Below, one piece after another: positions 1,532 through 31,685 of a stretch of 64,000 nucleotides of DNA. Within the stretch, counting starts at the first letter, position 1; each line of letters starts with the position of its first letter. The position numbers and the translations under genes were made by a program. The notes beneath the pieces were generated by a model that had not been told where the DNA came from, ran no database searches, and worked only from the letters and a program-made list of their open reading frames with translations. The stretch lies in the NCBI RefSeq assembly GCF_002356295.1, contig NZ_AP018042.1:1-64000 (forward strand). The letters run 5' to 3'. Source of the DNA: Labilibaculum antarcticum. Lineage in GTDB: Bacteria > Bacteroidota > Bacteroidia > Bacteroidales > Marinifilaceae.

Positions 1532-1564
1532 TTTTATTACTAACTATTATATTACGACCCTGGG

Positions 1565-1592
1565 AAGCAGATTCAAATTGAATCTGCTTTTC
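1565..1592 (+). terminator. Hairpin terminator after dnaA
   Basis: AAGCAGATTC (1565-1574) pairs with GAATCTGCTT (1580-1589) around the loop AAATT, followed by a short T run. It lies 33 bases past the dnaA stop, so dnaA is probably transcribed apart from the next gene. Confidence 0.7.
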
Positions 1593-1641
1593 TAATTTTA
1601 GGTAAAGTATTTTTTCATTACTTTGCGCCAAAATTACGACT

Positions 1642-2502
1642 ATGCTAAATCTACTTCTTGCAATTCTTACCTCAACAGGAATATTTATCACCTTTAAATA
1701 TCTTGAGAAATTTAAAATTGATATTCTTTCAGCGATCATTATCAATTACTTAACAGCTTCTCTTTGTGGTTACTTCTTGTCTGATGCAACATTCAATTTC
1801 GATCACATAATTCACCAGAACTGGTTCGGAATTTCAATACTCATTGGAGCACTTTTTATCATTGTCTTTTTTATTATTGGCCGATCGACACAGAAAGCTG
1901 GTATATCAGTAACAACTCTGGCAAGTAAAATGTCTTTTGTCCTCCCCTTGCTTTTTTCCATTATGTACTATCAGGAAGCAATAACTGCAAAAAAGATTTT
2001 GGGGATTGTAATCGCTGTTAGTGCAGTATTACTGAGTATCTATAAAAAACGAGGTGATAAAATAAATCGCCAGTTTATTTGGTTGCCAATACTACTGTTT
2101 TTTGGAGCAGGCACCGTTGACTCACTAGTGAAATTTGCACAACAAGAATACCTAAACTCAGGAGGAACTGAACAATTCACAACTCTACTTTTTGCTATTG
2201 CAGCCATTGCAGGATTGGTTACTCTATTTATTCGCAAAGAGAAATTCCGCGATCTGTTTCAGTTAAAAGTTTTAATTGGAGGAAGTGTTTTGGGCTTGGT
2301 AAATTACGGCTCGCTCTATTTTTTAATAGCCGCTTTAAACCATTCAGGATATGACAGTTCTGTGGTATTTAGCATTATTAATATTGGAATTGTAGCTTGT
2401 TCTGTATTTATTGGTTTAAGCATTTTTAAAGAAAAGCTGAACAAAGTAAACATATTGGGAATACTGCTGGCATTTATTGCTATTTTTATCCTAACCAATT
2501 AA
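1642..2502 (+). CDS. EamA/DMT-superfamily transporter
   Basis: The 286-residue protein is almost entirely hydrophobic, with about ten predicted membrane segments arranged as two five-helix halves. That is the layout of drug/metabolite transporters of the EamA family. A short charged stretch near residue 135 (YKKRGDKINR) separates the halves. Substrate cannot be told from sequence; relatives move amino acids, nucleotide sugars or other small metabolites across the inner membrane. The next gene starts only 4 bases after its stop, so the two are probably one transcript. Confidence 0.85.
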   Translation: MLNLLLAILTSTGIFITFKYLEKFKIDILSAIIINYLTASLCGYFLSDATFNFDHIIHQNWFGISILIGALFIIVFFIIGRSTQKAGISVTTLASKMSFVLPLLFSIMYYQEAITAKKILGIVIAVSAVLLSIYKKRGDKINRQFIWLPILLFFGAGTVDSLVKFAQQEYLNSGGTEQFTTLLFAIAAIAGLVTLFIRKEKFRDLFQLKVLIGGSVLGLVNYGSLYFLIAALNHSGYDSSVVFSIINIGIVACSVFIGLSIFKEKLNKVNILGILLAFIAIFILTN

Positions 2503-2506
2503 TTCA

Positions 2507-3139
2507 ATGAGCATTTTGAGTAAAGTAATGAATAGCGATACCTATAAAACAATCAAAGAAGCATCCGAAGGATTGTACAAAGAGAAAGGAAGTAAGTTTA
2601 TTGCTCTTGCCTATCCCGTTGCCTGCGAAGAAGAAGCAAAAGAACACATTGCCCATCTTAAAAAAGAGTACTACAATGCCCGTCATCATTGCTATGCTTA
2701 TATGCTCGGGGCCGATAAATTAGAATTCCGGGCAAACGATGATGGAGAACCTTCTTCAACTGCAGGAAAACCAATTTTGGGCCAAATTTTATCGAATGAT
2801 ATAACCAATATACTTATAGTTGTAATTCGTTACTTTGGCGGGACTAAATTGGGTGTAAGCGGTTTGATACAGGCCTATAAAGCTGCTGCTGCCGATGCTA
2901 TATCAAATGCAGAAATTATAGAAAAAACGATTAATGATATTTACGATATCAATTTCGATTATCTCGCCATGAATGATGTAATGAAAATCATTAAAGATGA
3001 TCAGCCGGAACAATTGGGACAAGATTTTAACCTGAGGTGCAAAATAACCTTAAGCATTCGACAAAGTGAAGTAGATAAGATCATCGAGAAATTTTTAAAA
3101 ATTGAAGGGGTAAAACCAAAATACTTACATACCATTTAA
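2507..3139 (+). CDS. YigZ/IMPACT family protein
   Basis: This 210-residue protein belongs to the YigZ/IMPACT (UPF0029) family. The N-terminal domain carries the family signatures KGSKFIALAYPV, HHCYAYMLG, DDGEPSSTAGKPIL and YFGGTKLGVSGLI, residues about 27-130. A smaller C-terminal ferredoxin-like domain (DUF1949 type) follows. Eukaryotic IMPACT modulates GCN2; the bacterial role is not settled. The listed start gives MSILSKVMN, and an alternative ATG at 2528 (MNSDTYK) fits family length equally well. It is tightly coupled to the DMT transporter before it. Confidence 0.92.
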   Translation: MSILSKVMNSDTYKTIKEASEGLYKEKGSKFIALAYPVACEEEAKEHIAHLKKEYYNARHHCYAYMLGADKLEFRANDDGEPSSTAGKPILGQILSNDITNILIVVIRYFGGTKLGVSGLIQAYKAAAADAISNAEIIEKTINDIYDINFDYLAMNDVMKIIKDDQPEQLGQDFNLRCKITLSIRQSEVDKIIEKFLKIEGVKPKYLHTI

Positions 3140-3227
3140 CTTCATCCATATCAACTCCATATACAATAATATATATCAACTGCCTTTTTCACTTTTTAAA
3201 ATTTGTTACTAATTAATCAATTTCGAA

Positions 3228-3260
3228 TTTGATTATTAGCATTATTTATACCTATATTTG
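3228..3260 (+). promoter_or_regulatory. Promoter of the pyrBI leader
   Basis: TATATTTG at 3253-3260 matches the Bacteroidota -7 element TAnnTTTG, and TTTG at 3228-3231 lies 21 bases upstream, the usual -33 spacing. Transcription would begin at about 3265-3270, leaving a leader of roughly 260 nucleotides before pyrB. Confidence 0.65.
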
Positions 3261-3269
3261 TAATCTAGA

Positions 3270-3524
3270 ATGAAGAAACAACTAATTCAATCTAGAACCG
3301 CAAATAGTACTAAAAGAAGTAAGAACCTTTACTTCTTCTTACACATTTTCCATTATTTATTTAGAAGAAAACACGATGTAAGGATTGATTCCCATTTTCG
3401 TTATTTGGATAATTCTTTTCAACAATATTTCTCAAAAATTCCAACATTACTATCATTTTTAGTAATTGTTGGTTTTTTTTTGTGCCGAAAAAACAATCAT
3501 ATTATAAACACACTTAATTTTTAA
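3270..3524 (+). CDS. Candidate pyrBI leader peptide (84 codons)
   Basis: An open frame of 84 codons spans the pyrB leader and ends 3 bases before the pyrB ATG. It resembles no enzyme. Residues 20-35 are rich in Phe, Tyr, His and Leu (LYFFLHIFHYLF), encoded by a pyrimidine-rich run. The frame reads straight through the terminator hairpin at 3441-3481. This is the arrangement of the enterobacterial pyrBI leader peptide, in which a ribosome following a paused polymerase prevents terminator folding when UTP is low. The predicted transcript start is so close to the ATG that translation would be nearly leaderless, and the frame could be chance. Function is inferred from position only. Confidence 0.4.
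   Translation: MKKQLIQSRTANSTKRSKNLYFFLHIFHYLFRRKHDVRIDSHFRYLDNSFQQYFSKIPTLLSFLVIVGFFLCRKNNHIINTLNF
3314..3337 (+). promoter_or_regulatory. Upstream hairpin in the pyrBI leader
   Basis: AAGAAGTAA (3314-3322) pairs perfectly with TTACTTCTT (3329-3337), with a short central loop. A pyrimidine-rich stretch follows to about 3366. A hairpin followed by a U-rich transcript would suit an RNA polymerase pause site ahead of the attenuator, which is my inference. Confidence 0.5.
3441..3481 (+). terminator. Intrinsic terminator (attenuator) before pyrB
   Basis: CCAACATTACT (3441-3451) pairs with AGTAATTGTTGG (3461-3472), with one bulged T and the loop ATCATTTTT. Nine T residues follow at 3473-3481. 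This is a complete rho-independent terminator 46 bases upstream of the pyrB ATG and well downstream of the leader promoter. It would stop transcripts before pyrB unless prevented, so it is best read as an attenuator. Confidence 0.75.
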
Positions 3525-3527
3525 TCA

Positions 3528-4433
3528 ATGGATAACAAAAGTTTAGTATCGATCGACGACTATACAAAAGAAGAAATCCTTGAAGTATTAGCTAGAGCTG
3601 CTGAGTTCGAAAAAAATCCTAACTGTAACTTATTAGAGGGAAAAGTTATTGCTTCACTATTCTTTGAGCCATCTACCCGTACTCGCCTTAGTTTTGAAAC
3701 TGCAATTAGTCGCATGGGTGGACGAATTGTTGGGTTTACCGATTCTTCTTCTTCAAGCGTTACCAAAGGGGAAACTTTAAAGGATACAACTAAGATGGTG
3801 AGCAATTATTGCGACCTAATTGTTATGCGCCATCCAATTGAAGGTTCTGCCCGCTATGCCTCGGAGGTGTCAGATGTTCCGGTGATAAATGCAGGAGATG
3901 GTGCCAATCAACACCCAACTCAAACCATGCTAGATCTTTATTCAATCATGAAAACTCAGGGAACTCTTGAAAACCTGAACATTTTTATGGTTGGTGACCT
4001 TAAGTATGGTCGTACTGTTCATTCATTGCTAATGGCACTTTCTCACTTCAACCCTACTTTCCATTTTATAGCTCCCCCTGAATTGGAGATTCCCCGCGGA
4101 TACAAAATTTTTATGGACAAAAACGATATCAAATATTTCGAACACACCGAATTTGATGATATTATTAACGATGCCGATATTTTATACATGACACGTGTTC
4201 AGAAAGAACGATTTGTTGACCCTTTGGAATATGAAAAAGTAAAAAATGTGTACATCCTTAAAAATAATATGCTTGCGAATACAAAAGACAACTTAAAAAT
4301 TCTTCACCCGCTGCCAAGAGTTAATGAAATTGCCGTGGATGTTGATACAAATCCTAAAGCATACTACTTTCAACAAGCTTTAAACGGTGTTTATGCCCGA
4401 CAAGCTATTATCGCGAAAGCTCTTAATCTATAA
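3528..4433 (+). CDS. pyrB: Aspartate carbamoyltransferase, catalytic subunit
   Basis: PyrB joins carbamoyl phosphate and aspartate to give N-carbamoyl-L-aspartate, the committed step of pyrimidine synthesis. The 301-residue length is normal. The carbamoyl-phosphate loop [12 protein letters not shown] is at 46-57, the HPTQT motif near 130, and the aspartate-site HPLPRVNEI motif near 262. The regulatory subunit gene follows 31 bases downstream, so the enzyme is probably the class B catalytic-regulatory holoenzyme. The leader before it carries a likely attenuator. Confidence 0.98.
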
Positions 4434-4464
4434 TTTCATACTCACAAAAAAAGCACCTCATCAT

Positions 4465-4923
4465 ATGAACGCAAAAAAAGAATTACAAGTAAGCGCTATT
4501 CAAAATGGAACTGTTATTGATCACATTCCTGCAGAATATCTATTTCAGGTAATCACCATATTAGGCTTAGACAAATGTGGGAACTCCGTAACCTTCGGAA
4601 ACAATTTGGAAAGTAAACTATTGGGAAGGAAAGCCATAATAAAAATTTCCGAAAAGTTTTTTAAGGATGAAGAGATCAATAAAATTTCATTAATTGCCCC
4701 ACACGCTAAACTAAATATCATTCGTGATTACAAGGTAGCAGAAAAGAAAATTGTTGAAACACCTAAAAAAGTGGTTGGAATTGCCAGATGTATGAATCCT
4801 AAATGCATAACTAATGTGGAAGCTGTAACCACGCGTTTTCATGTTATTAATACTTCACCAATCACCTTAAAATGTCACTATTGTGAAAAAATCACCGATC
4901 TTAAGAACATTAGAATTGTATAA
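4465..4923 (+). CDS. pyrI: Aspartate carbamoyltransferase, regulatory subunit
   Basis: PyrI binds nucleotide effectors and holds the catalytic trimers together. The allosteric domain begins at MNAKKELQVSAIQNGTVIDH, so the ATG at 4465 is preferred; upstream frame sequence overlaps pyrB and looks non-native. The C-terminal zinc domain has CMNPKC and CHYCEK, giving the four cysteine ligands in the spacing of known PyrI proteins. At 152 residues it is full length. It ends the pyrBI operon, with a strong terminator just after. Confidence 0.96.
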   Translation: MNAKKELQVSAIQNGTVIDHIPAEYLFQVITILGLDKCGNSVTFGNNLESKLLGRKAIIKISEKFFKDEEINKISLIAPHAKLNIIRDYKVAEKKIVETPKKVVGIARCMNPKCITNVEAVTTRFHVINTSPITLKCHYCEKITDLKNIRIV

Positions 4924-4950
4924 ATAGCATTTTTTTGTTTCTCAACTAAA

Positions 4951-4977
4951 AAGAAGCCCCAAAAGGCTTCTTTTTTT
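4951..4977 (+). terminator. Rho-independent terminator after pyrI
   Basis: AAGAAGCC (4951-4958) pairs perfectly with GGCTTCTT (4965-4972) around the loop CCAAAA, followed by a run of seven T. It closes the pyrBI transcript. Confidence 0.85.
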
Positions 4978-5021
4978 GTAGAATACAATATTCCTACCCC
5001 TTAGGATAAAAGGATAATTAC

Positions 5022-5029
5022 TACCTTTG
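5022..5029 (+). promoter_or_regulatory. Putative -7 promoter element
   Basis: TACCTTTG fits TAnnTTTG and lies 28 bases before the next ATG. I see no clear TTTG at the -33 distance, so this is a partial match. Confidence 0.4.
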
Positions 5030-5057
5030 TTTTCTTAAAAAATTAAATATCCAAAAC

Positions 5058-5717
5058 ATGAATTCTTCTATAGAACAGCTTCGTGAGCTTATATTACAAG
5101 CGATTGAGAAAGGACAAAACGGAAAGATACGAGCTTGTAATAAAGACTTGAATGCCATTTATAAGAGTATCAAAAAAGATCCCTTCTTGCTTTGGGATGA
5201 TGTTGCAATTTCCCAATTAGGAAAGGCAATCATCATGATGTTACATTTTGATTTAATTGATGAAGAAGAAAAAAATATTGGCCTGGCTCATCTCTCCTAT
5301 CTGTTTATTACCAGAGGAATTGAAAGAGAAGAAAGCTTAGCTCCGGAAGAAGATCAAAGTGAGTTATTTCGCTTACGGAAAGACCGCATTATTCTGCTTA
5401 AGAGTTGTGATGATTCCTTTGTTGACAGTTTACAGGAATTTTATTTTTCGGATAGTGAAGCCGAAGACTTAGATACTTATAATCAACAGAGAAAAGCTGT
5501 TTTAGCCCGATTGCCGTATCTTCAGTTTGCAGATATACATTTGATTGAACAGAATTATACTAACCTGAGAGATGATGAATATTTGCTTGAAACGGCTAAT
5601 TATATTGAGAATGAAAATGAGATAAGTGATGAGAATTTAAAAGAGGGACTTTTACTTCTCAAGATTTTGTATAAGCATACCTATCAGCAATTAAAAGAAG
5701 GCAAATTGCATTTCTAA
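5058..5717 (+). CDS. Conserved hypothetical helical protein
   Basis: I do not recognise this 219-residue protein. It is soluble, acidic, without signal peptide or membrane segment, and reads as mostly alpha-helical with many Glu, Leu and Lys residues. A highly acidic patch near residues 126-138 (FSDSEAEDLD) separates two helical halves. It stands alone between the pyrI terminator and a long repeat-rich spacer. The start is supported by the -7-like element just upstream. No function is proposed. Confidence 0.75.
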   Translation: MNSSIEQLRELILQAIEKGQNGKIRACNKDLNAIYKSIKKDPFLLWDDVAISQLGKAIIMMLHFDLIDEEEKNIGLAHLSYLFITRGIEREESLAPEEDQSELFRLRKDRIILLKSCDDSFVDSLQEFYFSDSEAEDLDTYNQQRKAVLARLPYLQFADIHLIEQNYTNLRDDEYLLETANYIENENEISDENLKEGLLLLKILYKHTYQQLKEGKLHF

Positions 5718-6005
5718 CAACTCATTATAATCATTTGTAAATTAATCAATTGTTTTTAAGTTGGCTGACGAATAAAGAGAGAATACAAGAACTTGAAATT
5801 TCATTTCGAGAATAAAGCATCAATCCAATCGAAAGCTGTAGGGTGTTCCAATTCAAGCTTGGAAGCCCGAATTGCGATCGATTGACAATTCCCGATTGAA
5901 AACTAAATCCGCAAATAATTAAGGACAGAATTGATTTCATGATTTCTGTTTTAATCAAATTTCCATTAAGATTACGGTACGCTGTACCTCCTTGTTACTT
6001 ATTTA

Positions 6006-6240
6006 CTACAAATACTACGCAACTCTGTTGCTTGACTTAAAAACCGTAAAAAAATCTGCCTACTTAAATTTCTGCTACTTACACCTTTTTACTTGTCTCT
6101 TGAATTCTTGTTCCTTGAAACTTGCTTTGCTACAAATACTACGCAACTCTGTTGCTTGATTTAAAAACCGTAAAAAAATCTGCCTACTTGAATTCCTGCT
6201 ACTTGTCCCTTTTTACTTGTCTCTTGAATTCTTGTTCCTT
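6006..6240. repeat. Tandem pair of about 111-bp repeats, period 124
   Basis: The segment beginning CTACAAATACTACGC at 6006 recurs at 6130 and continues similarly for about 111 bases to the TTGTTCCTT segment, with few substitutions. The copies are 124 bases apart. They lie in a 925-base gene-free stretch (5718-6642). Confidence 0.85.
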
Positions 6241-6352
6241 TCTCTTTTTTCCTTTCTCCTTGTTACCTGCACCTTTTTACTTGTTACTTCTTACTTGCCA
6301 CTTGCCACTTGTAACTTGTAACTTGATTTACTTGTAACTTTAAACTTGTTTC
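6241..6352. repeat. Degenerate ACTTG-type short repeats
   Basis: About 110 bases made of imperfect units such as TTACTTG, CCACTTG and TAACTTG on the plus strand, continuing the pyrimidine-rich tail of the preceding repeat pair. No coding signal is seen; a 71-codon open frame across it is low-complexity and rejected. Confidence 0.7.
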
Positions 6353-6369
6353 TAGCGACAAACGAAATT

Positions 6370-6448
6370 GTGTGAGGGATAGCAGCGGTATCCTTTTTTG
6401 AGGAACGAAGAAAAGATTTAGCGAATAGCCCGACCCGAAGGGACACAC
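6370..6448 (+). ncRNA. Structured intergenic element, possibly a Flavo-1-type RNA
   Basis: GTGTG (6370-6374) can close a domain with CACAC (6444-6448). Inside it GGATA (6377-6381) pairs with TATCC (6389-6393), and CCC GAA GGG forms a tight hairpin at 6434-6442. The conserved-looking words AGGGATAG, AGCGG and AGCCCGACCC are, from memory, typical of a repeated structured element of Bacteroidota intergenic regions resembling the Flavo-1 RNA family. The family name is a recollection, not a search result. It lies about 195 bases before the next gene. Confidence 0.5.
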
Positions 6449-6642
6449 CCAAACCTAAGAAAAAGACTTTTTTATCCGTAAAACATATAAAAGCTTATCG
6501 ATTTGCACTTTTATTTATATCTTTCAACTTGATTTGGCAGGGAGCACAAAAATGGCTGCTATTCTTTCTGTTACAAGTACATTTCATTCAATCATAATGT
6601 GCCTGATGTTCAGCCAAATGAAACAATAAACAAAAGTTTTTT

Positions 6643-8133
6643 ATGAGTATAGAAAAATACGATCTTGTTGTACTGGGAAGTGGCCCGGCGGGTTTTTCGG
6701 CAGCAATGCGTGCCATTGATTTTAATAAATCTGTTTGTATCATTGAGGCGAGTCATTTAGGCGGTGCCGGTATTATGAATGGTGCTTTAACTTCGAAGGC
6801 GATGTGGGAATTGTCCCGGGATTTCTCAATTGCTTCATCGGTGATGAGAGGTTATCGTGCTTCTGGTTTAAATGTGGATTACAATAAAGTTCAACAAACC
6901 ATTTTACAGGCAGCCAAACAAAAGCAATTGCAGATGCTATCGCAAATTGAGACTTATTCGCAACCTTCGGTAACTTGCGGCAATATTACGTTAAAATATG
7001 GCTGGGGAAAATTTATTGATTCGCATACTGTTGAGGTAATTTCCAATGACAAAATAGAGCAGGTTAAAGGTGATAATTTCATTATCGCAACAGGCTCCCG
7101 TCCGCGTCCGATGCCTGACGTTGAGATTGATAATGAGCGAATTATTGACTCGGAAGGCATCATGGGTTTGAAAGAATTTCCGGAACGAATGATTATTATT
7201 GGCTCGGGAATTATTGGTTGTGAATACGCCACTATTTTCTCCAATTACAGCCAGACAGAAGTTCACTTACTAGACCGACAGCATAAGGTAATTCCTTATG
7301 AAGATGATGATTTAAGTAGTTTTGTGGGTCGAAATTTAGAAAGCAATGGTGTAATTATTCATCATACGGCCAACTTAAGAACAATTCGAAAACGTCCGGA
7401 CTTTTTGGAAGTTGTATTGGATTACCAAGATGGTCACTCGACGGTTTTAGAGGTAGATGTGGCCATAGTGGCCATTGGCAGAATACCGAATTTGGATAAT
7501 ATTGGTTTGGAAAATGTTGGAATCAACACTACAAATCGTGGTTATCTTGATATTAATGAAGTTTGTGCCACGGATAATTTTCAATCGTGTAACATTTTTG
7601 CAGCAGGTGATGTATCGGGGCATGCGCAATTGTATTCGGTTGCTGAACTACAGGGCAGATATATTGTTGAGGCTTTGTATGGCAATTCGGAATATCCGTT
7701 GGACTACTCGAATATGGCGACATTAATGTTCTTTAAACCTGAAGTAGCAGCTGTTGGTTTGAACGAGAAAGCTTGCCAAAAACGTGGTATTCCATATAAG
7801 GTTGCGACCTATTCGAACTCATTGGTTAACCGTGCTATTGCAATGCGTGCTACCGATGGATTTGTGAAAATTATTGTAAGCGATGATGGTAAAGATACAA
7901 TATTAGGGATGCGTGCTGCGGGTCCGCAGGCTTCTACCCTAATTACATCTATAGCCTACCAAATTACACAACATGGTACGTTGAAAGATATACGGCAAAA
8001 TGTTCACCCACACCCAAGTATTAGTGAGGGTATTCAGGAATGTTTGCGGGTTTTTGAAGGAAAATCGATTTATAAACCGAAAGCCTTTCCCGATTTAATA
8101 AAATTGGAGACTTGGAAACCGGAAGAGGTGTAA
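6643..8133 (+). CDS. Dihydrolipoyl-dehydrogenase-like flavoprotein lacking the redox cysteines
   Basis: This 496-residue protein has the full architecture of class I pyridine nucleotide-disulfide oxidoreductases. An FAD-binding GSGPAGFSAA is at 12-21, ATGSRP and an NAD(P)-binding GSGIIGCEYA lie in the middle, IFAAGDV is the second FAD motif, and the C-terminal dimerisation domain has HPHPSISE. In lipoamide dehydrogenase the active site reads GG-x-C-x4-C-x3-K; here it reads GGAGIMNGALTSK (40-52), with Gly43 and Ala48 in place of both cysteines. It cannot do disulfide chemistry, so a transhydrogenase or diaphorase-like role is possible. It is monocistronic with its own terminator. Confidence 0.85.
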   Translation: MSIEKYDLVVLGSGPAGFSAAMRAIDFNKSVCIIEASHLGGAGIMNGALTSKAMWELSRDFSIASSVMRGYRASGLNVDYNKVQQTILQAAKQKQLQMLSQIETYSQPSVTCGNITLKYGWGKFIDSHTVEVISNDKIEQVKGDNFIIATGSRPRPMPDVEIDNERIIDSEGIMGLKEFPERMIIIGSGIIGCEYATIFSNYSQTEVHLLDRQHKVIPYEDDDLSSFVGRNLESNGVIIHHTANLRTIRKRPDFLEVVLDYQDGHSTVLEVDVAIVAIGRIPNLDNIGLENVGINTTNRGYLDINEVCATDNFQSCNIFAAGDVSGHAQLYSVAELQGRYIVEALYGNSEYPLDYSNMATLMFFKPEVAAVGLNEKACQKRGIPYKVATYSNSLVNRAIAMRATDGFVKIIVSDDGKDTILGMRAAGPQASTLITSIAYQITQHGTLKDIRQNVHPHPSISEGIQECLRVFEGKSIYKPKAFPDLIKLETWKPEEV

Positions 8134-8137
8134 GCAT

Positions 8138-8168
8138 AAAAGACGCGATTTATATCGCGTCTTTTTTT
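8138..8168 (+). terminator. Rho-independent terminator
   Basis: AAAAGACGCGAT (8138-8149) pairs perfectly with ATCGCGTCTTTT (8154-8165) around TTAT, followed by further T residues. It lies right after the flavoprotein gene. Confidence 0.9.
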
Positions 8169-8425
8169 ATATAAACTCATAAGATCTATAATCACAACAA
8201 ACGACCTAATCTCAGCTATCTTCTATCAACCTGAGCCACACCTATAGCTACTTAATTTACAGAAGATATACTTATCACTTTAACGTGAAAGGTAAACTTA
8301 AAATAGCTTATAGGTTACGATCTTTTTACATTTGATGCTTATTAAAAGCCAGATCTTAGATCGTGTTTTAATTTAGCACTGTGCTTACTAAATTATCAAT
8401 TCTTCACTTGCACTGGTTCGTGTTG

Positions 8426-9373
8426 CTATTCCAGTGGTCTTTTTTTAATCATACCTCCTTTAGCATCTTTAATACTATGCATAACAACAAAGGCATCTTT
8501 ATCGATTTTATCGATTTCGGTGTGTAGTTTTGCTAATTCCAGTCGGGTTAGCAGGGTATATATGATATCAGTATCAACCATAGAATGACCTCTTTTACCG
8601 CAATAAACGGTACAACCCCGTCCAAGTTTTTTGAGTATCGCTAACCTAACTTTGTCACTATCATTCGAAATGATAGTTACTCCTACATATTCTTCAATAC
8701 CCGATACAACAAAATCGACTGTTTTTGATGCAGCTAAATAGGTAAGTATTGCATACAACGAAATTTCAATTGAAAATACATAGGCTGCAACTGAAAAAAT
8801 AAGCACATTAAATATAAGAATTACATCTCCCACAGTTAATGAAGTTTTTTTGCTTAAAAAAATTGCAAGCACCTCTGTTCCATCAATAACAGAACCACCT
8901 CTAATAGCTAAGCCAATCCCTAAGCCTAAAAAGAATCCACCAAAAATTGCAATCAGTAATTTGTCATTGGTGATTAAAGGAAAGGGGATAAAGTGAACAG
9001 TAATAGCTAACAATAAAATGGCAACAATACTTTTTACGGCGAATTGCCTGCTGATTGTCGAAAATCCCATGACTATGAATGGAAGGTTTATCACTACGAT
9101 TAAAATAGATAATGGAATTTCGGTTAATTCGGCTATCGTTAAAGAAATACCCATTACCCCACCATCTATGAACATATTTGGCAGTAAAAACCCTCTTAAT
9201 CCAAAACCAGCCGACAATACCCCCAATAAAATGAGGAAGCTATCGCGCATTAAATGAGTGAATTCAACTTTTGTGCTTTTTACAGCTTTCTCAAATTGAG
9301 TTGATTTATAACTTCTTTTTTTAAGTCTATGCCTTACGGCCTCGGAGATCATATAGTTAAAAATCGGATTCAT
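8426..9373 (-). CDS. YitT family membrane protein
   Basis: The 315-residue protein has about five or six membrane segments from residue 45 to 210, followed by a soluble C-terminal domain (about 225-310). This is the YitT arrangement: a DUF161-type membrane part with motifs such as GGVMGIS and GGSVIDGTEVLA, then a DUF2179-type domain (YVGVTIISNDSDKVRLAILKK, GRGCTVYCGKRGHS). An N-terminal cytoplasmic stretch of about 40 residues is longer than usual. The function of this family is not established. The gene faces the flavoprotein gene convergently. Confidence 0.9.
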   Translation of the reverse strand: MNPIFNYMISEAVRHRLKKRSYKSTQFEKAVKSTKVEFTHLMRDSFLILLGVLSAGFGLRGFLLPNMFIDGGVMGISLTIAELTEIPLSILIVVINLPFIVMGFSTISRQFAVKSIVAILLLAITVHFIPFPLITNDKLLIAIFGGFFLGLGIGLAIRGGSVIDGTEVLAIFLSKKTSLTVGDVILIFNVLIFSVAAYVFSIEISLYAILTYLAASKTVDFVVSGIEEYVGVTIISNDSDKVRLAILKKLGRGCTVYCGKRGHSMVDTDIIYTLLTRLELAKLHTEIDKIDKDAFVVMHSIKDAKGGMIKKRPLE

Positions 9374-9658
9374 ATTTTGTAGTGTTTGTAATTTATCATT
9401 AACTTAATAATTTTTAAACGACTCTAAACAAGCTTCTTATATAACTATCTGCAAGTACTAAATATACATTTTTTAAAACTTAAACGATTCACTTTTGGAC
9501 TTAAATACGTTGTATAATCATTTGCTCTATTCTGTCGACAATCCTTATCATATTATGTGATATTTATGCAATTTATCCGGTGAAACAAGGTTTAATTCAA
9601 TCTATATAGTCGTAACTCATCCAATTCTGATTTTATACTTTAAATTAAACTGCGATTT

Positions 9659-10060
9659 ATGATGGAAATTTCACAGAAAATAAAATCAGTACAAAGCACA
9701 GAATTTCGTAACTTATGGTCTAACAAAAGCTTAAACCAGACAGCTATGAACTCAACTCAAATGATGAACATTATTATGAATGGTGATTGGCGAAATGCTG
9801 AAACCAATGATGTCTGTTGTTTTTTCTGGTCGGATTCGGATCATTCAATAACAATTAAATACAAATCGGGAGATAAAACAGGACTTCAAAATCCACATCA
9901 ATTTGTAAAACTTTATCATGACGCTGAATACCTGAAAAATTGCAATCGGTTACGCTATCAGAGTAATTTGTTCACCACTGAGTTTACTCTTGATTCGGAA
10001 AATGGACCGCTACTGGTCGTTTCGAATGTATTCGGGAAAATGAAACTAATTCGACAATAA
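9659..10060 (+). CDS. Hypothetical protein
   Basis: I do not recognise this 133-residue protein. It has no signal peptide or membrane segment. The C-terminal half (YRLR..TTEFTLDSENGPLLVVSN) looks beta-rich. The double ATG leaves the start uncertain by one codon. It is followed by a hairpin, supporting a single-gene transcript. 285 gene-free bases precede it, in which I see only AT-rich sequence. Confidence 0.6.
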   Translation: MMEISQKIKSVQSTEFRNLWSNKSLNQTAMNSTQMMNIIMNGDWRNAETNDVCCFFWSDSDHSITIKYKSGDKTGLQNPHQFVKLYHDAEYLKNCNRLRYQSNLFTTEFTLDSENGPLLVVSNVFGKMKLIRQ

Positions 10061-10063
10061 TAA

Positions 10064-10098
10064 AAACCATCCTACAAAAACAAGTAAGATGGTTTAAT
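10064..10098 (+). terminator. Hairpin after hypothetical gene
   Basis: AAACCATCCTAC (10064-10075) pairs with GTAAGATGGTTT (10084-10095) with one mismatch. The T tract is weak on the plus strand (TTTAATTT). Confidence 0.5.
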
Positions 10099-10271
10099 TT
10101 GGTATGAGTCGTATGAGTTTTCGTTGCTACAAGCTATCAAAACGCGCACTCTTTAGTGTATATTTTCACTTTCAAATTAAGCAGACTGTGTTTGTTTTTT
10201 CCATTGACGATATAATTATTCTTCATTTGCTGCAGATTAGTCGTATGAAATTCCTCACCAAATTGATTAGT

Positions 10272-10460
10272 TTAATTTTGCGAGTCTGAAATTTGAGGTT
10301 TTTTCAATGCCATATACAAGCTACTACCAGCACCAACAAGTAATATTAGTAGCCCCTGAGTAAGACAAATAGATCCTGCAATATTATCGAATAAAGCTTC
10401 CTCTTTATTAATTGCGATTATTATAAATGTTATAGAAACCAACAGAAACAAAAATAGCAT
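10272..10460 (-). CDS. Small two-helix membrane protein
   Basis: The 62-residue frame holds two hydrophobic segments (LFLFLLVSITFIIIAI and ICLTQGLLILLVGAGSSLYMAL) joined by a short acidic loop, with a polar tail. The frame stays open upstream of the ATG with coding-like sequence (KNRYSSKKAYLGIASA) but without ATG, GTG or TTG, so the true start is unclear. It lies downstream of, and in the same direction as, another small membrane protein. Function unknown. Confidence 0.45.
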   Translation of the reverse strand: MLFLFLLVSITFIIIAINKEEALFDNIAGSICLTQGLLILLVGAGSSLYMALKKPQISDSQN

Positions 10461-10601
10461 AGCACTTGCTATTCCTAAATAAGCTTTTTTACTTGAATAC
10501 CTATTTTTGATTTTTTAAGTTGTTACTTTTTTAAGGATGTAAAAGCAAACAAAATCCCATTAACTATCGCAACCTTGACACCGTCCTGATATGAAAGTAG
10601 A

Positions 10602-11126
10602 TTAAATGGCTCTCCTACTGCTTACCTCAGCAACAACTGCGTCAGAATCTTCTAAAATGGCTTGCTCCCCGCTATTCAATTCCAATTCTCTTACCAGTTT
10701 TTCTTTTGCTGGAAAGTAAGTGGCAAACAGTAGCATGATCATGACGGCAAAACCCAACAATAAATATTCCCCCGTAAGTAAATAAGTGATAATTGCGAAG
10801 AAAGAGGTTCCTTGGAGCATGGCATACTTAATAATGCTGACTGATCGGTAGGCTTCCATTTTAGTTTTTAACTGCTTCTCCTCTTTGGCCAACTTTACTC
10901 TTTTATTCGCAATCCTATTGCCAATAGTATAAGTAGCAAGGAAAAATACAGGTAGCACAATCATGAAAACCATTCGAATGACATCATCACCTCCATTAAG
11001 TGGTCCTATTATTTGAATAATAAAAATGGCAAAGGATGCAAAAAACACCTGCCCCATTAATAAGGCAGCAAAAACGATGGTGTTGCTCCGTTGGTACTGC
11101 TGAAAGTTTTGTTCTGTTTTGTTCAT
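10602..11126 (-). CDS. Conserved hypothetical four-helix membrane protein
   Basis: The 174-residue protein has membrane segments near residues 18-40, 48-66, 98-114 and 120-138. A charged basic helix at about 70-90 (RIANKRVKLAKEEKQLKTK) lies between the second and third, and the tail is acidic. I do not recognise the family. The ATG at 11126 gives a sensible cytoplasmic N-terminus rich in Gln and Asn. It may be co-transcribed with the small membrane gene that follows. Confidence 0.7.
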   Translation of the reverse strand: MNKTEQNFQQYQRSNTIVFAALLMGQVFFASFAIFIIQIIGPLNGGDDVIRMVFMIVLPVFFLATYTIGNRIANKRVKLAKEEKQLKTKMEAYRSVSIIKYAMLQGTSFFAIITYLLTGEYLLLGFAVMIMLLFATYFPAKEKLVRELELNSGEQAILEDSDAVVAEVSSRRAI

Positions 11127-24939: not shown

Positions 24940-25056
24940 CTCTTTTGTGTTTTTTAATTGGTTGTGTTTTAGTTCATTATTTTCATTCTAGTCCTAACAA
25001 CCAGCATCAATACTCATGATCGTTTAGCTTTTGACTACATAAAAGTTTCTTCTCAT

Positions 25057-25500
25057 CTAGTTAATTTTAGAAATCTGATCTTGTGACTTAATAAGTAGAA
25101 ACGAGTCCAAATACGTATAACGAATCTCACTTATATCCTTCAACACCAATGAGTCTTCTGTAAGTTTCAATATTTTGAATTTATAATTATTGTAATCATT
25201 TATTTCAAGTAAAGAATCGGTAATCTTGAAAGAGAAGCCATCCCATATTATATCTCCGTAATTTATTTTTTTTCTATTCCCATCATTTGAGTAACCATAC
25301 TCGACAAACTCTTTCTCTTTAGTTAAAACCCACCCTTTACCATTCATTGTGCTATCAAATTTGTAGTATGGATCCCAGTATTTAACGCTATCCGCGGTGA
25401 GCATTTTCATTCTAATTCTATCGCCATTTTGTTTTAAATTGGAAAACCCTAAAATCAGAAATAGAAAACTAAATAGTAGTAATATTTGCTTTGTTCGCAT
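25057..25500 (-). CDS. Small exported hypothetical protein
   Basis: From ATG 25500 the 147-residue product begins MRTKQILLLFSFLFLILGFS, a signal peptide or anchor. The mature part is beta-rich and polar (YWDPYYKFDSTMNGKGW, ISEIRYTYLDSFLLIK), like small lipocalin-type or stress-response exported proteins, but I recognise no family. The upstream extension to 25548 is rejected since it would bury the signal peptide. The CCGTTATAG spacer sits 9 bases before the start. Confidence 0.7.
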   Translation of the reverse strand: MRTKQILLLFSFLFLILGFSNLKQNGDRIRMKMLTADSVKYWDPYYKFDSTMNGKGWVLTKEKEFVEYGYSNDGNRKKINYGDIIWDGFSFKITDSLLEINDYNNYKFKILKLTEDSLVLKDISEIRYTYLDSFLLIKSQDQISKIN

Positions 25501-25635
25501 CAGATTAACTATAACGGCAAATGTATGAGTAATGATAGTCCCGAACACTTTAGGGAGCGGGGTCTCTGCCTACCATAGCAAAGAAAAATTAAAGCGGATT
25601 GAATTCTTGATTTTTACGTTTGAACAAGCAATCAA

Positions 25636-28600
25636 TTATAGCGTGTGTTGGGGCATCGTACTTTCTACTTGCTCAGTTAGTAATTTTTCAAAATATATTT
25701 TTGCCACATTTACATTATAATTTCTACTCAACCCTTTTTTAACAGCTGTTTTTAAATCCCTAGACTTGCCTATATGTTCCATTATGTGTGGTCTGTCAAA
25801 AGATAATATCCAATTTAGATTAAACTTCGAATAATCAAATGCATCTGGTTTTAAAATCCATTTAAACATTTCTGAATCTATGCTACTATGTATATCATTT
25901 ATAGATTCCATATCAAAAAGTTGATTTTTATATATTAAGTTGACATAGAAATGAAGCTGATTCCACACTGAAGTACTTTTGATATTATTTGGAAAACCAT
26001 CATTATTAATTTCATAATCGGGAAAACCTTTACACGCCAAGTATAAATTTGCAACATACTTATCAAATATCGAAGATTCATTTCTAAGTTCCCAGACCCC
26101 CCAATTATATAAATATTGAATTAACTTATTGTTATCAAGAGATGGTTTTATTAATTTCAGGTATTTAGTTTGTTGTTCCTTATTTAACAGGCGAAAAAAC
26201 GGTGCTATTTTCTTTTTATCCTTACACTGCAGTAATTGAATATAAAATTCTTCTCCTAAAATCTGCTCATTACCTTGTTTATTAATGATAGCATCACATA
26301 TTGGTTCGACTAAACTATTTGTTCCAATATGTTTGGAAACTATATAATTAAGTAATCGAAATATATTTTGTTCATTAAAGGAATTAATATACTGAACTGA
26401 AAATAAAGAAAAATATGAAAATGAATCATGGTATTCGTAGATAGAATTCACTTCTAAATAATTAAGAATTTTATCTAGTACTTCATTGACTTGACTATTA
26501 CTTAGATCAATCTTAGTAAACAAAACGAGAAAATTATTTAAAGACCTAACCATTTTGCTTTTAAATAAATCAGAATCTTTTAATGCTCTACTGTATAATT
26601 TGTTATTATTTATTTTTCTTGAAAAGATTGTGTTAATCTCATAACCAGATGTAATGAATGATTCAAATGATTCAAAAATATTATTAAGCGTTTTTTTATT
26701 ATTTTCAAATTTTAGGGTCTTAACATCATAAGTTTTTAAATGGGATGCTAACTCCTTAGTATTTCCAAGTGTAATAAATGTAATTACAAATAATTCAGAG
26801 AAGTTTGGTAATTTTTGTTTGTACTGTATATTTGTAGAATAGCTCATCAACATGGATTCTAAATACCTGTTTGCTAAATCTATGAAATACTTGTATTCTT
26901 CATTAAACAAAGAATTGTTTTTGTAGAAAATCCACAAAATATAAAATGTTGTTTCCGCTTCATGCCAATACGCAGGCCCCATTGAGTAGTAGTTACCATC
27001 TTTATATTTATCGTAAGTATCTTTTATCGTAGAATAATTCCTTTCAATTATTATTCTGGAACTTTCAAACAATTTATTTTCTTTAATAGCAACTAAGGCT
27101 TCTTTAATAGAAATATCTATTGGTAACTCAAATAAAATTTTGTCTAGATCTATCTTTTTAATTTTAATTTGAATGTCTTCTAATTCATTTTCGTTTAAAT
27201 CCATTATGTCCCAACTTCGCAAAAATGGATAAAGCAACGTTTGATTATACGATGCAATAAAAAATGAGACATATTCTTTCTTTCTCCAAGATTTTGATTT
27301 CATTTCTTCTAAAGTGAAATAAGCTTTGGCGAATTGCCCCATTTTTTGAAACCCCCAAGCCTCTTCAAAACCAATATTCTGGTTTGTACTTTTACAAATT
27401 GCTTTACTTGCAGTAGAGTATAGTTCTTGTAAAAGATTACCTATTTCAAACCGTCCAAATAAACACTTTGGACAATTACAATTTTCATTATTTTCAACAT
27501 GAAATTTGATATATGAGGGAGAAGTATCATTTTTACGACCTACTGCAAAAACACCACTTGAGCAGAGTAAATTAAGTGCTTTGTGTAATTCTTGCTTTTC
27601 GGGTTTTATAGTTTTATCGTTGATCGGTTTTAAAACAATATTATCCATATCTCCTTTTTCATCCTTTAAAAAAGATAGTAAATCTTCATTTAAAGTTTCA
27701 ATAGCAGGATAATTATAGCTTGCCGAAGTATTCAATTCATATTGTGCTTTCTTCTGAAGCTTGAAAGGTGAAATTTTTTCTATAACACTGAGCGGTATTG
27801 CACCTAATTCTTTAAATCTCAATACAGAGTTAATCAATTGATCTTTAACGTTTAGATTCTCAATAGTATCTGAAAATACATCAAACTCTTCTATTGTTTT
27901 TAAGAATTTAAAGACTTTCTGACCAGTTGGACTAAGTTCCTTAAGTTGAATACTCTCCTCGTCTGAGGTTATGCCTTCAAAGTATTTATTGATTGGTAAA
28001 TCTTCGTATTCGACTATAATCAATCCTTTCTTCTCTAGTTTTCTTTTACGTTCCTTGTAATTTTTATCTTTCTTGTCTTGAATTATAAAAAGGTAAGGTG
28101 GTTGATTGTCCTCTTTTAGAATATTTTTAACCGAATTGGTAATATGCTCAAGATTTGGGTCAGTAAATGAAAACCCAACAAATAATACTAATTTAGAAGC
28201 AAATATCCCTTTTATAAACCCTTCAATAAGAGGGAAGTTTTCCGAATATTGCTCGTAATCTTTTTCTTTTAAAACGATATTTCTTTCATCAAAGTCTCCG
28301 TGCATTTTCACAAACAAAGAACTTCCATTAGAATAAGGTAAATCTGTATCTTTTTTAATAACTGAATACCTATAACTTTTTTGTTCAAAAATTTGTTCAA
28401 AATGGGAGTCGTAATTTGTAGAAATAATATGATGTGGTTGTAATTCAACAATTTTCTGATGTATAGGGTTGTACTTTGTAACACCGTGCTTCAATATTTC
28501 TTGTACTCTTGAATTGTATTCTTTCTTCCCTCTTGAGTCATAATACAATTGACCCACCTTCAGAAAATCTTCTTCATCACCGTCTATTCCTGCTTTTAAT

Positions 28601-29193
28601 TCTTGAATAAGCCGCCACCAACCTGGAACTCCCGAATCAATTGACACTCCAGCTCCAGTGAATATAACAAGTTTACCATTTTTCTTTGCTTCTACAATAT
28701 TCTTCAGACTTTCTCTTAGTTTGTTGGAGAAATTCGGAGTCTGAAAGGGAGTTTCTGTTTTAAAAATGAAGTTTTGGTTAGTAAGCCAATTGTCTTTCTT
28801 GGCAAGTAATTCTTCTTCGCTTAACCAAACAATATTATTCCATACCCCTTCATTACTTGGTAGTTTCTGATCAATACGTTCTATTTGCTCATTTGATAAA
28901 ATATACTCATATGATGTCGCATAAGGGTCATTTTTACTTGTTTTAAAAAGACGAGGAGGTTTTTCAAAATCGATTTTTTCATTCTTGTCGTTTATATCTC
29001 GCAAGCCAAAGTAACTTATGATTTTATTTTTAAAATCAGTAAACCTGAATCGATCTCCTATAGCATTACTTTTATAATCAAAAAACTTGTATTTAGAACC
29101 TTCCTTTAATACTAGATAATCAAATTTATTTGAGAAATCATTGGATTTAGCTACTATCTGTTTTTTAATTATTGCAATACTTAAATGATTCAT
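25636..29193 (-). CDS. Large SIR2-domain protein, candidate anti-phage NADase
   Basis: This 1185-residue protein has an unusual N-terminal region of about 160 residues, then a SIR2 domain (about 163-400). The NAD-binding TGAGVSIDSGVPGW is at 179-192, the TNYD motif at 259-262 (Asn260), the putative catalytic His298 in KMHGDF, and VGFSFTDPNLEHI near 339-351. A C-terminal part of nearly 800 residues follows, helical and TPR-like in feel, with a Cys cluster NCNCPKC at 571-577. No P-loop is seen. The architecture is close to defence-associated sirtuins (DSR type), which deplete NAD after phage sensing; that role is inferred. It stands alone, very AT-rich, next to repeats. Confidence 0.85.
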   Translation of the reverse strand: MNHLSIAIIKKQIVAKSNDFSNKFDYLVLKEGSKYKFFDYKSNAIGDRFRFTDFKNKIISYFGLRDINDKNEKIDFEKPPRLFKTSKNDPYATSYEYILSNEQIERIDQKLPSNEGVWNNIVWLSEEELLAKKDNWLTNQNFIFKTETPFQTPNFSNKLRESLKNIVEAKKNGKLVIFTGAGVSIDSGVPGWWRLIQELKAGIDGDEEDFLKVGQLYYDSRGKKEYNSRVQEILKHGVTKYNPIHQKIVELQPHHIISTNYDSHFEQIFEQKSYRYSVIKKDTDLPYSNGSSLFVKMHGDFDERNIVLKEKDYEQYSENFPLIEGFIKGIFASKLVLFVGFSFTDPNLEHITNSVKNILKEDNQPPYLFIIQDKKDKNYKERKRKLEKKGLIIVEYEDLPINKYFEGITSDEESIQLKELSPTGQKVFKFLKTIEEFDVFSDTIENLNVKDQLINSVLRFKELGAIPLSVIEKISPFKLQKKAQYELNTSASYNYPAIETLNEDLLSFLKDEKGDMDNIVLKPINDKTIKPEKQELHKALNLLCSSGVFAVGRKNDTSPSYIKFHVENNENCNCPKCLFGRFEIGNLLQELYSTASKAICKSTNQNIGFEEAWGFQKMGQFAKAYFTLEEMKSKSWRKKEYVSFFIASYNQTLLYPFLRSWDIMDLNENELEDIQIKIKKIDLDKILFELPIDISIKEALVAIKENKLFESSRIIIERNYSTIKDTYDKYKDGNYYSMGPAYWHEAETTFYILWIFYKNNSLFNEEYKYFIDLANRYLESMLMSYSTNIQYKQKLPNFSELFVITFITLGNTKELASHLKTYDVKTLKFENNKKTLNNIFESFESFITSGYEINTIFSRKINNNKLYSRALKDSDLFKSKMVRSLNNFLVLFTKIDLSNSQVNEVLDKILNYLEVNSIYEYHDSFSYFSLFSVQYINSFNEQNIFRLLNYIVSKHIGTNSLVEPICDAIINKQGNEQILGEEFYIQLLQCKDKKKIAPFFRLLNKEQQTKYLKLIKPSLDNNKLIQYLYNWGVWELRNESSIFDKYVANLYLACKGFPDYEINNDGFPNNIKSTSVWNQLHFYVNLIYKNQLFDMESINDIHSSIDSEMFKWILKPDAFDYSKFNLNWILSFDRPHIMEHIGKSRDLKTAVKKGLSRNYNVNVAKIYFEKLLTEQVESTMPQHTL

Positions 29194-29520
29194 TGATTTT
29201 ATTTTTTAATATCTAATTCAATTGAAAATTAAGGTAGTTCTATGTGTACCAACTCCAAAACAAACCCAAACGAGTCCATTTCAATTCTCCAATTCAAAAA
29301 GCCCTTTTCACCCCGCCCTCACGGCACAATAAAAACACTTCTCTCATTTTTAACTTCCGAATCTACGAAACAAAAACTAGCTAACAAAACATTTATATCG
29401 CAAAGTCAACAACTCGTTTTTAGCCAACATAAAAGGACTGCCTTGTCTTATTCTGTTGAACAGGGAGCGCAACACAGCAGTTAACAGCTATCTCCTAACA
29501 CATTTTGGAGCTGCAAGCTT

Positions 29521-29834
29521 GGTGAAAATCGGTTCAGGGTGCTTCCAATGCTCAAAACCCCGCTGCTCTGCAGGGCAGTTTACTTCTAAGGCATCAGAAG
29601 TACATTGCTCTGTGTGGCAGTCTGCTTTTAAGGCAACAATAGTATACTGCCCCGCAGAGCAAGTCACTTTTTAGGCCACAAACAAGCACTGCTCCGTCGG
29701 GCAGTGTGCTTCCAAAGCAAAAAAACCACTCTGCCCCAGCGGGCAGAATGGTTTTTACTCATCAATTCTTGTTTGCTTTGCGGAGCAGTGCACTTTTAAT
29801 GCCTTGAGCGGGCACTGCTCCAATTTTACGTGAA
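29521..29834. repeat. Seven-to-eight-unit array of diverged palindromes with strict 42-bp period
   Basis: Units begin at 29563, 29605, 29647, 29689, 29731, 29773 and 29815, each exactly 42 bases apart, with a weaker unit at 29521. Each starts with a near-palindrome of the type CTGCTCTGCAGGGCAG, followed by a TxACTTTTAAGGC-like segment. Sequence identity between units is modest although spacing is exact. A 10-bp inverted repeat GGAGCAGTGC / GCACTGCTCC links the last two units (29782-29821). The rest of the gene-free stretch 29194-29520 shows nothing I can name. Confidence 0.85.
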
Positions 29835-30497: not shown

Positions 30498-30960
30498 GTT
30501 AATTAATTTTTAATGAAAAACTATAATTATTTACAAGAATTGATTTTAAGCATTTACGTACGATCATTATCTCTCAATCACCAACAAATCCTACCAACTC
30601 CATCTAATTCTATTTCCTCACCAACAAATTCAACCCAACTCTTCTCTTTTTTTATGATCAGGCATCTAAATTAATAACATTTTTCAAAACACAACATAAC
30701 TACTTGTTTTATTTTCCCATAATTCGAGTGTTTTGTAAAGCAAAGCCCAATTCATGGGGAATTGGGCTACTATTTAATTGCATGCATTTTCTTCTTTTTA
30801 CAGCTCACAGTCTTTTTAATTCGATACAACTATCGGTGATCTTTTGTGCCTCAAACACCCCTCTGTACTTAGTTTCTAACTCTTTCGTGATTCCCTTAAA
30901 AAGAAGAGAATTCGGAACAGGTACATTTACACTCTGTTTTTGTTTAAAACCTCACCCCGG

Positions 30961-30980
30961 CCCTCTCCTATAGGAGAGGG
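30961..30980. repeat. 20-bp perfect palindrome
   Basis: CCCTCTCCTA followed directly by TAGGAGAGGG is a perfect palindrome in the gene-free stretch 30498-31685. It belongs to a class of short dispersed intergenic palindromes; no gene is attached to it. Confidence 0.7.
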
Positions 30981-31000
30981 AGAAAAAAAAGAGAGCATCA

Positions 31001-31100
31001 GACCTGTTTTCTTTGCGTTCTTTGTGATGTCCTTTGGTGTACTTTGTGGTTAAAGCATTTGCTTTGATGTTGTTTTACACGTTAAACACCCCTCTGTCCT
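31001..31100 (+). repeat. Dispersed intergenic repeat, copy 1
   Basis: The segment from GACCTGTTTTCTTTGCGTTC to CACCCCTCTGTCC recurs at 31563-31660 with about 85 percent identity by eye. A third, partial copy (the TTTGTGCC..ACACCCCTCTGT end) is at 30842-30867. No coding signal is seen. Confidence 0.75.
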
Positions 31101-31471
31101 TCGGACATCTCCCCTCGAAAAGGGAGAAACGTTCACAAACCAAGTCTTCCCTTCCCGAGGGGAAGTGCCGACAGGAGAAGGGGTTTCAGAAAAAAAGAAA
31201 ATTAACAGTGAATCTTGTTTTGTGTTTTAGAGCGGGAGTTGCCGATCGGGCGCGATTCGGACTAATTGGATTGATTGGAAAACCACACAGCTTCCGAGAG
31301 GCTTGATTCTTTTGCATACTTTTCTCATCTAAGGAGAAAAGTATGAGCCCATCGGCTTGAGATAAATGCTAAAAACATTTATTTTACTAACTGTTATATC
31401 ATTTCGTCGCATGCATGAACTCATCCTTTATCAAGATTTTTACGTGCGACAATTACACTTTACTTCCAATA

Positions 31472-31535
31472 CCTGGGGTGACATTCGCTCCGCTCATTTT
31501 ACCCCAGGCTATGATGTTCGAGCCCTTCAGGCTCG
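31472..31535. repeat. Inverted repeat pair in intergenic region
   Basis: CCTGGGGT (31472-31479) pairs with ACCCCAGG (31501-31508), and CGAGCC (31519-31524) pairs with GGCTCG (31530-31535). This is a compact two-hairpin element between the two copies of the dispersed repeat. Function unknown. Confidence 0.6.
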
Positions 31536-31562
31536 GGAGTGAAATCCAGAAAGGAAATAGTA

Positions 31563-31660
31563 GACCTGTTGTTTCTTTGTGTTCTTCGTGATGTCCTTGG
31601 TGTGCTTTGTGGTTAAAGCATTTTTTTTGATGTTGTTTTGTGCCTAAAACACCCCTCTGT
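31563..31660 (+). repeat. Dispersed intergenic repeat, copy 2
   Basis: This is the second copy of the repeat described at 31001-31100, ending 26 bases before the 3' end of the hybrid kinase gene. It suggests that 31001-31660 grew by duplication. Confidence 0.75.
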
Positions 31661-31685
31661 CACTATCAAACACTGTTCGTGTAAT

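Follow-up and report, generated by a model that had tools for sequence, protein, structure and literature searches.

The gene considered here lies on the minus strand of the window, by which we mean the whole stretch of 64,000 nucleotides analysed (positions 1 to 64,000 of contig NZ_AP018042.1 of Labilibaculum antarcticum), and encodes a SIR2 protein of 1185 residues. The reading frame at 25636–29193 is genuine, and the product divides into a predicted Nudix-fold domain, a SIR2 domain and a long C-terminal module, as follows.

25636..29193, minus strand: SIR2 gene (P0001), open reading frame (ORF) of 1185 aa
28759..29193, minus strand: predicted Nudix fold, lacking the Nudix box, residues 1–145 (AlphaFold2 (AF2) model and structural matches)
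27874..28731, minus strand: SIR2 domain of DSR2/ThsA type, residues 155–440 (Pfam SIR2_2, DSR2 sequence match, structural Z)
28414..28416, minus strand: N260, aligned to DSR2 N133 (alignment; invariant)
28300..28302, minus strand: H298, aligned to DSR2 H171 (alignment; invariant)
25678..27906, minus strand: shared C-terminal module, a putative sensor, residues 430–1172 (A2 profile and SIR2-only profile; predicted fold for about 571–1172)
27463..27480, minus strand: CxCxxC cluster, CNCPKC, residues 572–577 (pattern match)

The original prediction, made from the letters of this DNA, was of a solitary SIR2 protein, a candidate anti-phage NADase, with intact active-site motifs and a C-terminal part that has a CxCxxC cluster and no P-loop. 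All four motifs were located (TGAGVS starting at residue 179, TNYD at 259, KMHGD at 296 and GFSFTDPN at 340), the cluster is present, and a scan of the protein for GxxxxGK[ST] found no P-loop pattern.

The SIR2 domain is matched by Pfam SIR2_2 at residues 255–391 (E 1.9e-25). Among solved structures it is nearest by sequence to DSR2 (E 8.9e-38) and then to ThsA (E about 1e-20), the ThsA models of PADLOC match it with E 4.9e-39, and the SIR2 domain of the AF2 model superposes on DSR2 with a Z of 28.1 and a root-mean-square deviation (rmsd) of 2.8 over 262 aligned residues. N133 and H171 of DSR2 are given as catalytic in PMC11087589, and the corresponding N260 and H298 are invariant in 7/7 SIR2 members. 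TNYD and HGD are present in 8/8 SIR2 domains; three of the four motif patterns occur in all eight and the fourth in seven, the pattern missing L077. Free variation of the catalytic residues, named in the original prediction as a sign against its own claim, was not seen. Relatives are 43–73% identical to the window protein in the SIR2 domain and 19–58% in other parts. A metabolic or protein-deacylating sirtuin without a defence role would equally belong to the SIR2 superfamily and would suit the ordinary neighbours of the gene in the window. However, the NCBIfam deacylase models fall far under their cut-off (best 24.1 versus 221 bits), different effectors are carried on the same C-terminal module, and that module is patchily distributed: its A2 profile has matches, some of them weak, in 7/395 genomes of the class, 8/393 of the order and 5/395 of the phylum, the genome of the window being counted each time. 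We regard a sirtuin of this kind as most improbable.

The C-terminal part is a module common to other predicted effectors, which the original prediction had not anticipated. The A2 profile has eight rows, one of them a non-SIR2 protein (L008) that P0001 alone had found at E 2e-13; because the influence of this row was to be removed, a SIR2-only profile was built from seven SIR2-bearing modules and run on 23 members together with their reversed and shuffled copies. It found 16/16 of the members outside it (E 1.1e-13 to 5.9e-90, Z=1e6), and 0/23 reversed and 0/115 shuffled copies passed E 1000 (0/138). Left out of the set of 23 were duplicates of one locus, matches to SIR2 only (including L003, whose C-terminus is unmatched by the profile), L014/L065 (a 205-aa end fragment), G438:C80 (56 profile positions), G599 (which stops inside) and G1031 (E 3e-4 only). 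The N-termini of the 23 members comprise SIR2 with a Nudix-like domain (six), SIR2 alone (two), the MmeI_N type (six), the DUF4365 type (two), SMEK (one), Mrr-like (two), PIN-like (one), one unassigned, one with none and one fragment. The MmeI_N domain was assigned by Pfam at or above cut-off in L052, L061 and L073 and by similarity in L008, L053 and L101; DUF4365 by Pfam in L075 and through a 64-residue match in L055; SMEK with 106.9 bits, at a contig end. The Mrr-like and PIN-like labels come from motif recognition, Pfam having matched neither domain. Of the 23 members, 19 have CxCxxC; it is absent from L002 (SIR2 and C-terminal module, with no N-terminal domain), L077, the 2117–4750 protein of L073 and the fragment L059.

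In a tree of 21 of the 23 modules (the incomplete L079 and L059 left out) the MmeI group forms one side of a branch with support 96/98, and Mrr and DUF4365 need two changes each, forced by starred branches. All N-terminal labels together need seven changes, against a possible minimum of six and a mean of 11.6 for shuffled labels; the labels are therefore clustered, and few repeated swaps are needed. In L073 (G1023 C35) two adjacent genes, 2117–4750 and 4795–7692, carry the same module with different predicted nucleases and are followed by a match to the PADLOC Aga nuclease model. The protein at 9992–12889 of L101, on a Hymenobacter tibetensis plasmid (NZ_CP094674.1), is annotated as MmeI, a restriction-modification enzyme of type IIL; it consists of an MmeI_N-type domain joined to the C-terminal module, and the annotation is probably wrong.

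One member, L051 (G493 C24), is a stand-alone module on a long branch that groups with Nudix-SIR2 members (7 rows, 100/99). Its gene is the middle one of a trio (6437–10770), which looks like a split version of the window protein: the gene before it encodes a Nudix-like domain with a weak EAD11 match (20 bits, cut-off 26), and the gene after it an EAD11 protein (42.9 bits). The first 135 or so residues of the preceding gene product (P0012) match the Nudix-like profile in one pairwise hhalign comparison (probability 78, E 1.8e-5), the single basis of this kinship because the N-terminal profile search of 395 genomes did not report P0012. This arrangement points to a Nudix-like domain that moves together with the sensor and not with SIR2.

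For residues 430–1172 no Pfam family passed its cut-off, Lig_C alone appearing with 14.4 versus 25 bits, and in six of the 15 non-SIR2 members, those scanned with PADLOC 2.0.0, no model covers the module, a chance-level GajB match spanning 68 residues. In a literature search that lacked most subscription journals we recognised no paper describing the module and found none joining DSR2, Nudix and SIR2.

The predicted fold of the module resembles the C-terminus of DSR2. The full-length AF2 model, with a predicted local distance difference test score (pLDDT) of 74.5, was aligned with 20 near-full-length DSR2 entries across 668–793 residues, the domains following in the same order, and residues from about 571 to 1172 were aligned with four DSR2 C-terminal chains (Z 21.6–22.5, 518–526 aligned, rmsd 5.3–5.8, 11–12% identity). 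Each of the best 50 structural entries for the full model (Z 14.3 or higher) is DSR2 or another SIR2 protein, partly by title and partly by what we take the entries to be; the ranking is a realignment of Foldseek's 1000 best chains, a list that one domain can fill. In the model, helices and short strands at 449–566 are followed mostly by helices up to 1171, which is compatible with the published division of the DSR2 C-terminus into a C-terminal domain, HEAT repeats, a helix bundle and a helix-turn-helix domain that bears a beta hairpin (PMC11263360). The relation to the DSR2 C-terminus is not significant by sequence and is predicted from the fold. The window protein would thus share with DSR2 a SIR2 domain with aligned catalytic Asn and His, followed by a helical C-terminus of about 700 residues of similar predicted fold. 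It differs from DSR2 in its additional N-terminal Nudix-fold domain and in a C-terminal module that has CxCxxC and is common to non-SIR2 effectors. The original prediction had called the protein DSR-like in logic though not obviously in domain order: the likeness, specifically to DSR2, stands, but the order too is that of DSR2, SIR2 and then a helical C-terminus, with a Nudix-like domain added in front.

Other known systems fit less well. The DSR1 model NF041818 gave 21.9 bits against a cut-off of 1400, so that no full-length match was obtained. Membership of Thoeris as a ThsA was rejected: the SIR2 domain is of the same type, but the window protein is more than twice as long, Pfam gave no SLOG match, and no TIR protein (ThsB) was found among ten scanned neighbours. 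Avs5 (SIR2-STAND) likewise has a SIR2 effector fused to a large C-terminal receptor, and in Avs systems one receptor is common to several effectors; the window protein, unlike Avs5, shows neither a P-loop pattern nor, when scanned with Pfam, a STAND family match, and membership of Avs (STAND) was also rejected.

Residues 1–145, folded alone by AF2 from six sequences (pLDDT 83.8, predicted template modelling score (pTM) 0.79), are predicted to adopt a Nudix fold. The best 50 of 999 chains aligned have Z 8.9–11.0 and include the MUTYH C-terminal domain (Z 11.0, 116 aligned, rmsd 3.0), NrtR (10.1) and AraR (9.7); the titles of most name Nudix proteins, and the others (MutY/MUTYH, IPP isomerase, a mitoribosomal protein and KRIT1) we take to be Nudix-fold. 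Foldseek was weaker (best E 1.2e-3, none at or below 0.001, template modelling scores 0.27–0.51), and the N-terminal profile had no match among PDB sequences. The strict Nudix-box pattern, in its familiar form, was found in none of the six N-terminal domains. Besides the window, the profile search of 395 genomes found only G493 C17, which is as long as the contig of L021, two further matches at E about 0.008 not being counted. NrtR senses ADP-ribose (PMC9503650). Like NrtR and other recognition-type Nudix-fold domains, which are among its structural matches, the domain is probably a ligand-binding or protein-binding regulator, here, unlike them, fused to a predicted SIR2 NADase; by analogy with NrtR, one might speculate that its ligand is ADP-ribose, the reaction product.

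This domain invites a different account, in which the protein is an NADase effector that answers a nucleotide signal made elsewhere, through the Nudix-like domain or the C-terminal module, rather than a phage protein (compare ThsA and cyclic ADP-ribose isomers). The strong SIR2 match to ThsA and the capacity of Nudix-fold domains to sense nucleotides speak for it. Yet no signal-making partner was found among the ten scanned window neighbours and none was noticed by eye beside close relatives, SLOG is unmatched, the module has a predicted fold like the receptor part of DSR2, and the module also occurs in members without the Nudix-like domain. We think a nucleotide trigger unlikely.

The surroundings of the gene are summarized by two further features.

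24979..29325, no strand: variable stretch, about 4.3 kb here against about 200 bp in a congener, G004 (comparison with G004)
25057..25548, minus strand: 163-aa ORF, its N-terminus hydrophobic as judged by eye, located downstream of the SIR2 gene and inside the stretch missing from the congener

G004 matches both flanks (91% over 929 columns and 81% over 113 columns). Past the short second block the two genomes lose close-spaced colinearity, so that this is a variable site and not a proven clean insertion. Base composition agrees with an acquired stretch: at 28.8% the G+C content of the SIR2 gene is lower than that of all 42 other non-overlapping window ORFs of at least 150 aa (mean 37.3%, standard deviation 3.8, minimum 30.4%). 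The view of the original prediction that this is an AT-rich, transferred defence gene is thus backed, but its statement that repeats flank the gene holds on one side only. Short direct and inverted repeats lie at 29450–29830 and 30830–31661, between the SIR2 gene and a PocR-type histidine kinase gene; the clearest (a 65-nt pair at 31034 and 31597, others at 29.5–29.8 and 30.8–31.7 kb) are all upstream of the start of the gene. Bracketing by direct repeats was rejected, no long direct repeat spanning the gene among the families listed. The 163-aa ORF has no Pfam match, and tblastn over the loci examined found no counterpart outside the genome of the window; that it belongs to the SIR2 system is doubtful.

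A Pfam scan of ten neighbours identified two ABC-2 permeases, an outer-membrane efflux protein, cytochrome b561, a CrtO-like protein, a redoxin, a PocR-PAS histidine kinase and a Crp protein, two being unmatched; as the original prediction had stated, no HerA, TIR or Argonaute partner was among them. Around the relatives, 152 neighbour ORFs in 17 loci were considered, and 22 of them, from 13 loci, were scanned. Defence-type matches were found in eight of the 13.

L054 and L076: Eco57I/TaqI_C methylases, in L076 also a DUF1016/YhcG nuclease
L055: type IIG
L074: C5 methylase, HATPase, and a helicase matching DRT/GajB models
L077: type I R, AAA, RloB
L073: Aga nuclease model
L053: Upx model, E 2.7e-20
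L056: AbiGi

L051, with EAD11, would make a ninth; the other scanned loci gave a weak HNH match (L052, E 6e-6), an AAA ATPase (L018) and none (L057 and L101). In L057 a 917-aa protein (534–3287), unmatched in Pfam and PADLOC at the thresholds applied, ends 29 bases ahead of the SIR2 and C-terminal module gene. ORF lists read by eye for three close relatives whose flanks are long (L017, L018 and L021/L050), with a family scan for one ORF of L018, showed no conserved metabolic operon, the other sign that the original prediction had held against itself.

Full-length relatives are 52–56% identical (L017, Prolixibacteraceae; L018, an Owenweeksia metagenome-assembled genome (MAG); L019) or 31–32% identical (L021, and L020, whose frame is cut short at 1029 aa). 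L019 is a 5-kb contig binned as Woesearchaeota, and its protein is 79.4% identical to that of the Owenweeksia MAG; the contig is probably misbinned. None of eight congeners searched has a full-length match; in two of them, G005 and G007, the match is to the SIR2 part. Viral contigs yielded no relatives of the N-terminal domain or the C-terminal module; 19 loci matched the SIR2 part, one match extending to residue 660. Searches with tblastn found the SIR2 part only, in two records, among phages, and 292 plasmid records, none covering 80% of the P0001 query. A BFVD fold search gave no match at E ≤0.001.

Our favoured reading, to which we give a probability of about 0.7, is that the window protein is a single-protein abortive-infection NADase, DSR2-like in mechanism, with a sensor module that is exchanged between effectors. 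It is drawn from the nearness of the SIR2 domain to DSR2, the invariant Asn and His, the DSR2-like predicted fold of the C-terminus, the persistence of the module with differing effectors, the defence-type neighbours of relatives, the variable site and the outlying G+C content. The original prediction is partly supported: homology, structure prediction and context speak for a solitary SIR2 NADase of the defence type, carried on acquired DNA. Our working hypothesis is that the helical module (about 430–1172) would act as receptor for a phage protein, that binding would alter the assembly of SIR2, and that the SIR2 domain, through N260 and H298, would hydrolyse NAD+ and so halt the infected cell; the Nudix-fold domain, without a hydrolase motif, would regulate by ligand or protein binding, and the CxCxxC cluster may hold a metal. 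Where related proteins carry the sensor on other effectors, detection of this type would lead to cutting of DNA or RNA instead. Two reports describe DSR2 C-terminal sensor domains that bind tail tube and thereby activate SIR2 (PMC10981675), and activator-binding regions that are not conserved between DSR2 proteins (PMC11087589), so that tail tube is not to be assumed as the trigger here.

Several observations weigh against this reading. The near-full-length superpositions on DSR2 have an rmsd of 25–27, which means that the domains of the model and of DSR2 are not placed alike relative to each other, and the full-length model was built from only seven sequences and has a pTM of 0.48. The C-terminal profile found no DSR2 among PDB sequences (one chance match, E 0.89), the stretch 1108–1169 is colinear with DSR2 but not significant alone (i-Evalue 400), and the PADLOC Dsr2 model PDLC02184 is absent from the seven families listed at E up to 1 for the SIR2 protein, although it does match the relative L077 (E 4.6e-24). 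The 23 members are not a blind sample, because they were found with a profile already holding one non-SIR2 row. The ten scanned window neighbours do not form a defence island, and those of the relatives were chosen by eye (22/152) and without a control set. The protein might also respond to damage to the cell, a disturbed NAD balance or foreign nucleic acid and serve mainly as an anti-plasmid or stress toxin: the other effectors on the module are mostly DNA-nuclease types, and one member is on a plasmid. The modelled likeness to the protein-binding DSR2 C-terminus and the defence-type neighbours of several members argue for a phage-protein sensor instead, and we judge the damage or nucleic-acid sensor quite unlikely.

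It is tempting to go further, and we do so tentatively, at somewhat under even odds for the whole: the module may represent an ATPase-free phage receptor superfamily akin to the DSR2 receptor, swapped between six or more types of predicted effector (SIR2, MmeI_N, Mrr-like, DUF4365, SMEK and PIN-like), once apparently coupled through EAD11 adaptors, and a counterpart of the Avs receptors without nucleoside triphosphate hydrolysis, joined in the clade of the window protein to a dead Nudix-fold domain which, by sensing ADP-ribose or a related nucleotide, controls the NADase. If this is true, phage detection and killing would be separable modules without an ATPase, a DSR2-like receptor being passed between NADases, DNases and RNases; the nuclease-bearing relatives would become testable defence systems, and the dead Nudix-fold domain on an NADase would become a candidate sensor giving feedback on the breakdown of NAD+.

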